64,000 bases of DNA from Ferrimicrobium acidiphilum DSM 19497 (GTDB lineage: Bacteria; Actinomycetota; Acidimicrobiia; Acidimicrobiales; Acidimicrobiaceae), in the NCBI RefSeq assembly GCF_000949255.1, contig NZ_JXUW01000005.1:62001-126000 (forward strand), written 5' to 3'. Made by a program: the position numbers and the translations under genes. Within the stretch, counting starts at the first letter, position 1, and each line of letters begins with the position of its first letter. The notes beneath the pieces are model-generated. The model made no database searches. It had not been told where the DNA came from and saw nothing but the letters and a program-made list of their open reading frames with translations. Below, in pieces: positions 54,664-57,774 of this stretch.

Positions 54664-54706
54664 CCGATCGTGGGTGAACGCTCGTTAATGAATTGAAAAG
54701 CCGAAG

Positions 54707-54748
54707 CGTCATACGATGAATCGCATTCTGCATATCCATCGTATGACG
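54707..54748. repeat. inverted repeat straddling the left end of the insertion element
   Basis: CGTCATACGATG (54707-54718, outside the element) is the exact complement of CATCGTATGACG (54737-54748, inside the left terminal repeat). The outside arm looks like a partial right end of another copy, so the element may have landed in an older relic end or in a site similar to its own end. Confidence 0.6.
54720..54725. repeat. target-site duplication, left (ATCGCA)
   Basis: ATCGCA lies directly outside the left terminal repeat and again directly outside the right one (57710-57715). Confidence 0.75.
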
Positions 54749-54753
54749 CCAGG
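54726..54753. repeat. left terminal inverted repeat
   Basis: Begins TTCTGCATATCCATCGTATG. Compared with the complement of 57682-57709 it matches at 26 of 28 positions (mismatches at positions 14 and 24). Confidence 0.85.
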
Positions 54754-54914
54754 ACTACGTCCAGTTGACACGACTCCATTGTCTGAATCGTCATTGTGCA
54801 CGTTCGTTACAGCACCAGACAAGCAGCGGTTCACAAAAGTCGTCCCAGCTACGAGAATTCGTCGGGACAGACACGCGCTCATCAGGTTTTCTGCACGAGC
54901 AGTATCGTTGAGGC

Positions 54915-56522
54915 ATGGCTACGACACCTGTGGATCGCCGTCGTCATGCGTTGGATATGCAGATCCGTGAATCCTTGACTGGCAAGCACCTTGTGGTGGC
55001 TGAGGAGGGCTTTGAGATCAAGCGAAGTCTGCCTCATGGACATGTGGCAGCTATAGCTGCGATGGCAAATGAGTTAAAGCTTCCCGCCCTCCTTGGACCC
55101 GCCTGTCGTGAGCGAGATATCATCTATGCCCTGATCCTTGCCAGAGCCATTCGCCCAGCCTCCAAGCTCGCCACCTCCCGGTGGTTCAAAGACTCCACCC
55201 TTGGGGTTGACCTAGGGGTAGTGGGTATCTCAACCGATGAGATCTACTCAGCCATGGACTGGTTGTATGCACGCCAAGGAACTATCGAAGCGACACTGGC
55301 CAAACGCCACCTCCAGGAGGACTCACGGGTGCTCTATGACCTCTCCTCGTCCTGGATGGAGGGGACACATTGCCCTCTGGCTGCCTATGGATATTCCAGA
55401 GATCACAAGCGAGGCAAGACCCAGATCGAGTATGGCCTCATGACCGATGTCGATGGTCGACCGATCTCAATCGAGGTCTTTAGTGGTAACACCGGGGACC
55501 CTAGTGCCTTTGTGAATGCCGTCAACATGACCAGGGATCGCTTTGGGTTAAGAGAGCTCATCATGGTGGGAGATCGAGGGATGATCACCCGTGCACGTAT
55601 AGAGGCGCTGCGGGGTCTCGAGGGTGCAAAGTGGATCACCTGTCTACGGGCTCCCCAGATTCGAACCCTCATCGACGGTGGTTCTCTCCAGCTTGGCCTC
55701 TTTGATGAGACGAACCTGGCTGCGATCACCCATCCTGACTATCCCGATGAGCGCCTCATTGCCTGTCGTAACCCTGACCTGGCTCGTCTTCGGGCCAACA
55801 AGCGAGAAGAGCTCCTGGTAGCGACCGAGAAGGAGCTCGAAAGGCTCTCGAGCTCAGCGGGCTCGAGCAAGTATCCAATGGCCCTAAGGGTTGGACGAGT
55901 CCTTGACCGACACAAGATGGCCAAGCACTTTACCTTAGAGTTCGACGACGATGAGAGCTTCACCTTTGTCAGAGATACCAACTCAATCGAGACAGAGGCT
56001 GCACTCGATGGGATCTATGTCATACGTACCTCGGTGAGCCAGGAAGAACTCGATGATGCCAAGGCGGTAGAGGCCTACAAGGGCTTAAGCGTTGTCGAGC
56101 GCAACTTTCGCAACCTGAAGGTCATCGATCTCGATCTACGTCCGATCTATCACTACAGCGAGAATCGGGTCAGAGCCCACGTGTTTCTTAGCATGCTCGC
56201 TCTCTATGTTACCTGGCACATGAGAGAGGCTCTCGCGCCACTCATGTTTGGTGACGAGGAGATTCCAGAGCGCCACGATCCGGTTGCACCCGCGCTACGA
56301 TCTCGCGCTGCTGAATTAAAAGACGCCACTAAACGCGGGGCCGATGGCGAACCGATTCACAGCTTTGGCACCCTGCTCGCCCACCTTGGAACGCTGACTA
56401 GAAACACGGCTGAATTTACCCAAGGCATCCAAATCGAACAGCTCTCGGTGTCAACTCCACTGCAACGTAGAGTCTTTGAACTCATTGGATCACCGATACC
56501 AACCACCATTGGAGGAAAGTGA
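54915..56522 (+). CDS. IS1634-like (IS4 superfamily) DDE transposase
   Basis: 535 residues. Landmarks: RSLPHGHVAAIAAM, RAIRPASKLATSRWF, the first Asp in VLYDLSSSWMEG, GRPISIEVFSGNTGD, the second Asp in IMVGDRGMITRARIEAL, and the catalytic Glu in YKGLSVVERNFRNLK (Y-x6-E-R-x4-K form). The DDE set is complete. Relatives usually have about 50 further N-terminal residues with a VPNRxSPPA/RESYREGGK-type segment; here an in-frame TGA lies 3 nt before ATG 54915 and no such segment is seen in frame, so the N-terminus may be truncated or frameshifted. The ribosome site is poor. Confidence 0.9.
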   Translation: MATTPVDRRRHALDMQIRESLTGKHLVVAEEGFEIKRSLPHGHVAAIAAMANELKLPALLGPACRERDIIYALILARAIRPASKLATSRWFKDSTLGVDLGVVGISTDEIYSAMDWLYARQGTIEATLAKRHLQEDSRVLYDLSSSWMEGTHCPLAAYGYSRDHKRGKTQIEYGLMTDVDGRPISIEVFSGNTGDPSAFVNAVNMTRDRFGLRELIMVGDRGMITRARIEALRGLEGAKWITCLRAPQIRTLIDGGSLQLGLFDETNLAAITHPDYPDERLIACRNPDLARLRANKREELLVATEKELERLSSSAGSSKYPMALRVGRVLDRHKMAKHFTLEFDDDESFTFVRDTNSIETEAALDGIYVIRTSVSQEELDDAKAVEAYKGLSVVERNFRNLKVIDLDLRPIYHYSENRVRAHVFLSMLALYVTWHMREALAPLMFGDEEIPERHDPVAPALRSRAAELKDATKRGADGEPIHSFGTLLAHLGTLTRNTAEFTQGIQIEQLSVSTPLQRRVFELIGSPIPTTIGGK

Positions 56523-56550
56523 TGCGAACGAAAACACTAATCTCCGACAA

Positions 56551-56570
56551 AGTACCTGGTAGAAGGTACT
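56551..56570. terminator. hairpin between transposase and passenger gene
   Basis: AGTACCT, loop GGTAGA, AGGTACT: a perfect 7-bp stem 28 nt after the transposase stop. It lies between two convergent genes and could stop read-through, although no T-run follows. Confidence 0.4.
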
Positions 56571-56736
56571 ATCGGTCGGTGGGTTAGACGTAAGTTTGGC
56601 CTAATGGACCCGGAGGATAGAACCGGCGACTCGGATGCCTCTCCGTCAAGTGAGGCTATATCTCACAATCGCTCAAGCGGACGGCCCTTTAACCAATATC
56701 GCGCTGCGATGGTAACCCCCACGAACAAAACTCGAC

Positions 56737-57441
56737 CTAGCGAAAGCGCGGTTCCTTAAGATGAGCTTCGCTCTCCAACTTATGCACTCGCTCGTCATAA
56801 CCGATCTGTCGGAAAAGATCAGCCAAGGACTCGTAATGTCCATACTCGGCCGCAATTGAGGATTCGAACACCTCCTCTTCCCATTCTGGATGCTCTAGCA
56901 CGAGCTCCATATATTCATGCTCCGCATGGTCCTCAAAGTCAGCGTTCAAGCGATAGCTGAGGGATGGGCGCACGACATACAAGAGCGCCGAAACCTGATA
57001 ATAGATAAACGCGATCACCTGCGGCAAAACGGTGTATCTCAGGTAAGTCTCATCGATCCCACGCTCAGCAATCAACTCTTCTAGAATCAGAAGATGCCAC
57101 TGCTCGTTGTCCTGCTGGCTCCGCGACTCGAGCACCCGATCGTGAATCCGCCTTGCCATGGCAACGCGATCCGACACGTGTGTGATCGCGATATATGCAA
57201 CCTGCTCCCAGGACTGGTAGGGAACCCGAGCCACAAGTTCAAGTACCTTGAACTTTGAGAGACTGCGCTCCTTACCATAGACGGCGTCAAGCGAACTAAA
57301 GAGGAGCCTTGCCAGAACGCCGTACCTTCGACGTTGCGCAGACAACGTCTTGGTCTGCTCTTGTTTACGCTCGGGTGGAGTCAAGTTTCCCATCGCGCCC
57401 CTGATCCCGCCGTCATCATTACTAGCCTCATTCTCACCCAA
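56737..57441 (-). CDS. alternative-oxidase-like diiron protein (passenger of the insertion element)
   Basis: About 234 residues from TTG 57441 (GGAAGGGAG 7 nt upstream); the frame is open to 57483. Numbered from 57483, the ligand pattern is Glu82 (KVLELVARVP), Glu127-x-x-His130 (QQDNEQWHLLIL), Glu184 or 188 (NADFEDHAEHEYM) and Glu231-x-x-His234 (GYDERVHKLE): one Glu, ExxH, Glu, ExxH over four helices, as in alternative oxidases. VARVP and the NE.WHLL block match that family; a hydrophobic PQVIAFIYYQVSALLYVV segment fits monotopic membrane binding. Alternative oxidases take electrons from quinol to O2 without pumping protons. Activity here is inferred from these motifs. Confidence 0.65.
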   Translation of the reverse strand: MGENEASNDDGGIRGAMGNLTPPERKQEQTKTLSAQRRRYGVLARLLFSSLDAVYGKERSLSKFKVLELVARVPYQSWEQVAYIAITHVSDRVAMARRIHDRVLESRSQQDNEQWHLLILEELIAERGIDETYLRYTVLPQVIAFIYYQVSALLYVVRPSLSYRLNADFEDHAEHEYMELVLEHPEWEEEVFESSIAAEYGHYESLADLFRQIGYDERVHKLESEAHLKEPRFR

Positions 57442-57681
57442 GTCAACGCTCCCTTCCTCAGTACAGGCTCGACCACGACGCAAGCAATACCTCTATAGGT
57501 ATACATTTCCAGGCTCTTATCCTACAGCGTACGGCCCTTTCGACCTGAGTGTTGCGTCCGATCGCGCAACGCTCGTAACGTTCACATAACAGAAACACTC
57601 CATGGATCGGCAAGACAATGAATCGTAGCGAACGCTCACAATGACTATTCAGACAATAGATCCGTGCCGAACGAACACACC

Positions 57682-57709
57682 CCTGTCGTCATACGGTGGA
57701 TATGCAGAA
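57682..57709. repeat. right terminal inverted repeat
   Basis: Ends with CGGTGGATATGCAGAA; complement of the left end at 26 of 28 positions. Confidence 0.85.
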
Positions 57710-57715
57710 ATCGCA
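57710..57715. repeat. target-site duplication, right (ATCGCA)
   Basis: Same six bases as 54720-54725, immediately outside the right terminal repeat. Confidence 0.75.
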
Positions 57716-57774
57716 TAGCATCCATTCGACCCGGGCTGCAAGCACTACTCGCCGTACAGGTTAGCCTGATAGGA

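Follow-up and report, generated by a model that had tools for sequence, protein, structure and literature searches.

Positions 54727-57708 of the 64,000-nucleotide stretch of Ferrimicrobium acidiphilum DSM 19497 analysed here (the window; contig NZ_JXUW01000005.1, positions 62,001 to 126,000) probably form a non-autonomous composite transposable unit, with outer ends of the IS1595 family and a cargo made up of the debris of an IS1634-family insertion sequence (IS) and an intact alternative oxidase (AOX) family gene. An original prediction, made from the sequence alone, had taken the region for one IS carrying the oxidase as a passenger. In support of that proposal, one DDE transposase (54915-56522, plus strand) and one minus-strand gene of the AOX family (56737-57483) do lie within a duplication-flanked insertion, at a site that is empty in five of six relatives from the same genus. 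The union of transposase, oxidase and ends in a single IS does not survive, because the transposase belongs to an IS known from four compact copies and the outer ends are IS1595-type. A third copy of the terminal tip, at 54963, and the right end of the IS to which the transposase belongs, lying within the unit at 56600, had not been noticed.

The inverted terminal repeats are real: arms of 85 nt (54726-54810 and 57625-57709) are 79% complementary, and 24 of 26 positions match at the outermost tips, where a match of at least this quality has a chance probability of 7e-13 per site pair with the target duplication not yet counted. That duplication had been recognized, though at 6 bp (ATCGCA) rather than its full length of 8 bp (AATCGCAT, 8/8 identical, 54719-54726 and 57709-57716), and the unit therefore spans 54727-57708. 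At the left junction AATCGCAT is followed by TCTGCATATCC, starting at 54727, and at the right junction GGATATGCAGA ends at 57708 and is followed by AATCGCAT. The 12-base tip TCTGCATATCCA, with one mismatch allowed, occurs three times in the window, at 54727 (+), 54963 (-) and 57708 (-), always inside the unit. The left flank GCGTCATACGATGAAT (54706-54721) mirrors the unit's left end at 54734-54749 with 94% identity, forming a palindrome that spans the insertion point and may be what remains of an earlier end of IS1595 type, or may reflect target preference. The genes on either side, xerC and a lipoprotein-like gene, are adjacent in all five genus genomes in which the locus was found (G015-G019), with their matched parts at most ~200 bp apart; the same gap is ~3 kb longer in the window. 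The sixth genus relative, G020, gave no match to this locus.

The transposase within the unit is of the IS1634 family (NF033559, 303 bits against a cut-off of 100), but the element that encoded it is incomplete. Its right end is retained, with CTAA next to it, and its left end and ~48 N-terminal residues have been lost, a loss of ~288 bp from the 5' part as measured against the copy L022; the first 16 codons of the present frame, which replace the ~48 residues of full-length proteins, derive from a miniature element described below. At the DNA level, the four strongest matches beyond the window span only positions 237/238 to 1871-1879 of the query, equivalent to 54962/54963 to ~56604 of the window, and the remaining matches are mostly weaker, fragmentary, or cut by contig ends. 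Comparison of five copies of this IS, including one fragment from the host's own genome, reveals four that are two-ended, with a left end of approximately (A/T)CCGAACTTACG and a right end of approximately CGTAAGTTCGG plus one base. Each of the four is compact, stops directly after the transposase at its own right repeat, and has a matching 4-bp duplication (CTAA, CTAG, CTAA and TTAG); the left end was the only end found for the fifth, the own-genome fragment. The two-ended copies (L020, L021, L022 and L023, in genomes G017, G011, G016 and G021) are IS1634-family IS of ~1.93 kb with YTAR duplications, and no AOX match was found in any of these four genomes. Another IS1634-type fragment (L002, G000:C51:4-677), 91% identical, lies at the end of a contig of the host genome, where further copies may have been collapsed in assembly.

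These relatives bear directly on the single-IS proposal, in which a self-mobile element has terminal repeats of its own and carries between them both the transposase and the oxidase as passenger. Such an element would account for the repeats, the duplication and the presence of both genes within one unit. Yet four of the five relatives of the transposase's IS are two-ended, end after the transposase at different repeats and duplicate 4 bp, the genomes holding them lack an AOX match, the window transposase is missing its left end and first ~48 residues, and the outer ends of the unit accompany remnants of a different transposase, that of IS1595. We regard this explanation as extremely improbable, and as already refuted by the compact IS1634-type copies, a finding of the kind that the original prediction had itself named as its refutation.

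The outer ends are related to elements found elsewhere in the genus, where two kinds of end, here named A and B, share a common tip. The left end of the unit is a 237-bp miniature element that matches, over its full length and at 79% identity, a 239-bp copy from another genome of the genus (G015:C102). Homology to IS1634 starts at the last base of this miniature element, a clean abutment, and it therefore appears to have been inserted into the transposase gene. A search of 42 family genomes recovered DNA of the IS1595-type element from six, every one of them in the window's genus. In one of these (L060, G017:C6), B and A ends lie 1160 bp apart with pieces of an IS1595 transposase between them. 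The pieces match the IS1595 zinc ribbon (PF12760, 57.5 bits, 1e-15) and DDE domain (PF12762, 29.1 bits, 1e-6) above the Pfam cut-offs, as well as NCBIfam IS1595 (NF033547) in two segments (E values of 3e-11 and 2e-10) that each fall below the whole-protein cut-off of 75 bits. Beside an A end in G018:C11 there is a further PF12762 match of 25 bits, slightly under the cut-off of 27, and a shorter PF12762 frame in G017:C52 has the GGATATGCAGA tip on one side. A duplication of 8 bp is usual for the IS1595 family, and a two-ended copy in G016:C67 is flanked by ACACTCAT and CCACTCAT, identical at 7 of 8 positions. We assign the outer ends to an IS1595-family (ISXO2-like) element of this genus. The unit's sole transposase is IS1634-type, and the unit is at best non-autonomous.

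Several observations weigh against a composite unit that moved on these ends. Duplications vary among the other two-ended copies, from 7/8 in G016:C67 and 6/8 in G016:C17 to 3/8 in G015:C102 and 2/8 in G017:C6, and those copies pair an A with a B end, whereas the unit pairs A with A. The seven genus genomes yielded no intact IS1595 transposase flanked by such ends, and their two longest PF12762 frames (276 and 294 aa) are without the tips. The intergenic alignment with relatives is too diverged for a single copy of the target to be read. No promoter-like site was found upstream of the AOX gene, nor any terminator-like site. Because only a single copy of the unit is known, the case for its mobility depends on a single duplication and on sites that are empty in other species, and not on repeated copies. 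No second copy turned up in the host's own genome or in the family genomes searched, and the proposed spread among acidophiles is for this reason not supported.

Some of the same facts would suit a different history, in which an IS1595-type element came first to this site and later recombination added the oxidase together with the IS1634 piece, so that the oxidase never moved with the outer ends. Ends of this kind occur in 6 of 7 genus genomes, and the larger unit occurs only once in its own genome, as such a history would have it. However, the miniature element is two-ended and IS1634 homology resumes from its very last base, a junction that is accounted for by insertion but less readily by recombination, and the five relatives with the locus have no such element at the site. 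We consider later recombination quite unlikely.

A composite transposable unit could have been assembled as follows. An IS1634-family IS would have inserted next to the 3' end of an AOX-family gene, and the 237-bp IS1595-type miniature element would then have entered the IS1634 transposase gene. With a second IS1595-type A end present beyond the oxidase, the outermost ends may have been paired in trans by a transposase of IS1595 type, which would have mobilized all DNA between them. The unit would then have landed between xerC and the lipoprotein-like gene, producing the 8-bp duplication and leaving behind ~0.29 kb from the start of the IS1634 element; use of the two outermost ends would entail loss of the first part of that element, matching the part that is missing.

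Table 1. Features of the composite unit and its flanks in window coordinates
Feature	Position	Strand	Basis
Target duplication AATCGCAT, left copy	54719..54726	n/a
Miniature element, complete (type A end at the left, type B end at the right, inverted)	54727..54963	+
IS1634-family insertion sequence, 5'-truncated; own right end CGTAAGTTTGGC at 56589-56600	54964..56600	+
Truncated IS1634-family transposase, open frame	54915..56522	+	NCBIfam IS1634, 303 bits
CTAA, read as the remaining copy of the IS1634-type insertion's 4-bp duplication	56601..56604	n/a	Duplications of relatives
AOX-family gene, 248 aa, intact, under purifying selection	56737..57483	-	Pfam AOX
Right terminal end of unit: second type A end, IS1595-like family, inverted, ~85 bp	57625..57708	-
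Target duplication AATCGCAT, right copy	57709..57716	n/a

The cargo gene encodes a genuine AOX-family protein, as judged from Pfam, motifs and fold. Its open reading frame matches Pfam AOX (PF01786) with an E value of 1.6e-8 and 34.9 bits, above the cut-off of 22.7. The order of diiron ligands given by the original prediction (Glu, ExxH, Glu, ExxH) holds, the residues being E82, E127/H130, E184 and E231/H234; these, and likewise the tyrosine Y191, are invariant in all 55 sequences of an alignment composed of the window protein and 54 of 80 AOX loci fetched from other genomes (7 were cut by frame extension and 19 omitted for size). All 55 members match Pfam AOX at an E value of 0.01 or better, and 5 of them additionally give a weak match to COQ7. 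The conserved motifs align with those of plastoquinol terminal oxidase (PTOX), LE-[IV]AR-PY, NE--H, E--HA-H-Y and DE--H, as found in one Nostoc AOX/PTOX and one cyanophage PTOX.

A structure predicted from the 55-row alignment has a mean pLDDT (predicted local distance difference test) of 91; it replaced an earlier four-sequence model (pLDDT 45.7), which was not used. The model superimposes on trypanosome AOX (3VV9, 5ZDP) with a Z score of 20.8 and a root-mean-square deviation of 2.5 over 202-203 residues, compared with a Z score of 12.4 for the best non-AOX entry, and all 14 Foldseek matches with E values below 0.001 are trypanosome AOX. Sequence searches against solved structures returned nothing at an E value of 10, or two unrelated matches (E values of 0.02 and 1.9), and the link to AOX accordingly rests on Pfam, motifs and fold. 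A passenger outside the AOX family would have counted against the initial proposal, and this one does not fall outside it.

An AOX-like fold might still belong to some other diiron enzyme that is not a quinol oxidase. Identity is only ~17% to trypanosome AOX and ~34-36% to cyanobacterial AOX/PTOX over about half of the protein, 5 of the 55 members weakly match COQ7, and there are no conserved neighbours to reveal a pathway. Set against this are the six ligands and Y191, invariant throughout the alignment and in register with the PTOX motifs, and a structural match that covers residues 28-248; a different diiron activity is therefore on the unlikely side. As a member of the AOX family, the protein should be a monotopic diiron quinol:O2 oxidoreductase, oxidizing quinol without proton pumping. 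Comparison of the gene with three homologues from the family gave proportions of synonymous differences (pS) of 0.82-0.93 and of nonsynonymous differences (pN) of 0.16-0.27; these values show that the gene has been retained for function, and their ratio is omitted since synonymous sites are saturated. The host genome has two COX1-type haem-copper oxidase genes and gave no match to cytochrome bd (the bd control was positive in 10 of 14 genomes), and the AOX of the unit is the only AOX-like gene found in it. From general AOX biology, a one-gene quinol oxidase would offer this host a putative non-pumping, haem-independent bypass.

Relatives of the oxidase occur in 4 of the 42 family genomes (the host's own is one of the four); the six other genomes of the genus have none. 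At class level, 395 genomes were taken from a larger group, and 17 of them gave a match. One of these, G299, holds decayed frames only; its locus L208 (G299:C3:9210-9854) is an AOX-like frame with several stops, and no intact copy from G299 was among the matches listed for the class. The AOX genes of the three other family genomes stand in differing surroundings, with no A or B end recognized nearby. The closest relative (L074) has a 14-nt inverted repeat and one tip with two mismatches near its AOX gene, which we take as chance, there being no duplication and no further resemblance to an A or B end.

A wider genome scan yielded 153 AOX loci, of which the best 80 (L085-L164; best segments 51-77% identical to the window protein) were kept for neighbourhood analysis, alignment and tree. 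No conserved partner was found near these 80 genes, and AOX appears to stand alone: clusters of neighbouring frames comprised the AOX frame itself (49 loci) and antisense frames over AOX (22), and apart from frames lying over AOX no cluster exceeded 7 of the 80 loci. An apparent RarA-AOX fusion in L147 was rejected as a run of masked bases. A search for repeats of at least 17/20 with an exact duplication of at least 5 bp, within 2.5 kb on each side of AOX, recovered the window as a control and 2 of the 80 loci, both GC-rich and taken as chance, and an IS1634-type transposase was near AOX in none of the 80. Because such signals near other AOX loci are taken as chance, no general mobility of the clade is supported. 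Among viral contigs, 12 stretches fitted a pattern and none encoded a relative; plasmids gave four cyanobacterial records and phages two records of one cyanophage, all below 60% identity at an E value of 1e-5.

Phylogenetic relatedness was estimated with a quick tree of 77 rows, namely 73 of the 80 loci, the window and 3 PTOX, in which row L111 has a branch length of 10, probably reflecting a faulty frame, and is not trusted. The 74 clade rows comprise Actinomycetota (33), Omnitrophota (10), Myxococcota (9), Elusimicrobiota (8), Rokubacteria (7), Nitrospirota (3), Planctomycetota (1), Chlorobiota (1) and two ungrouped rows (the window and one other). These eight phyla were assigned by record title, and most records are metagenome bins in which stray contigs may occur; cultured strains among the loci include Pseudonocardia asaccharolytica DSM 44247, Granulicoccus phenolivorans DSM 17626 and Mycolicibacter sp. 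MYC098. A long branch separates the clade from cyanobacterial PTOX. The window gene clusters with three records of its own family, with a support of 95 in the SH-like approximate likelihood ratio test (SH-aLRT), and import of the oxidase from another phylum was rejected on this basis.

A December 2025 survey places AOX in Pseudomonadota only and PTOX in Cyanobacteriota, with AOX transfer confined to Pseudomonadota (PMC7618691). That survey applied BLAST with known AOX to a balanced genome set with few metagenome bins (PMC7618691), and so it may well have missed a divergent clade. Of two other papers, one reports AOX to be absent from acidobacterial genomes (PMC5900883) and one treats alphaproteobacterial AOX, citing non-AOX oxidases as widespread across phyla (PMC6431628); a third refers to other oxidases (PMC10993476). 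Searches of open PubMed Central (PMC) papers found none linking AOX to Ferrimicrobium, to Rokubacteria or to the term 'passenger gene', and AOX met Acidimicrobi- only in a reference list. Combining AOX with insertion sequence and horizontal gene transfer there gave no report of an AOX passenger; either another oxidase was meant or AOX was absent. We think the clade is under-reported, and it is not new as a sequence family, since Pfam recognizes it. Somewhat doubtfully, it might represent a third and overlooked clade of prokaryotic AOX, distinct both from the AOX of Pseudomonadota and from cyanobacterial PTOX, carried as a stand-alone gene across many phyla, for which cassettes of IS1595-type mini-transposons would be one route of entry and the present unit an instance caught in the act.

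AOX needs only a single gene, with no operon, haem synthesis or assembly factors, and for this reason suits a small transposable unit. The unit accordingly offers a concrete example of how a respiratory bypass encoded by one gene may enter a genome. Its AOX clade, which record titles place in eight phyla and which includes cultured strains, is not reported by the December 2025 survey and bears on views of AOX distribution and transfer. For IS annotation it carries a warning, that a transposase lying between terminal repeats is not necessarily the enzyme that moves those repeats.

The IS1595 family, reportedly treated by Siguier et al. in 2009, is said to include transporter IS (tIS) with passenger genes. 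Transporter IS with passenger genes are described for this family in one source (PMC8496243), and tIS are also treated in another (PMC7986276). The present unit resembles them in that its ends are tied to IS1595 transposase remnants and flanked by an 8-bp duplication, and passenger genes as such are known in the family; unlike them it has no internal IS1595 transposase, its outer ends come from two different copies, and its cargo is a respiratory oxidase with IS1634-family debris. In a composite transposon, or a cassette between miniature elements, unrelated DNA is enclosed by the outer ends of two related elements and moves together with them. The outer ends of the unit likewise come from two related elements and bracket unrelated DNA, but the left bracket is a complete miniature element and the right an ~85-bp end, neither with a transposase. 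The internal piece agrees with IS1634-family IS in its transposase, right end and flanking CTAA, and differs in having lost its 5' end and become cargo. The oxidase shares its fold, diiron ligands and conserved motifs with AOX and PTOX (PF01786), but belongs to a distinct bacterial clade, distant in sequence from trypanosome AOX and set apart by its long branch from cyanobacterial PTOX. IS1595-family passengers are already known, and the new parts are the cargo and the way in which the unit was assembled.

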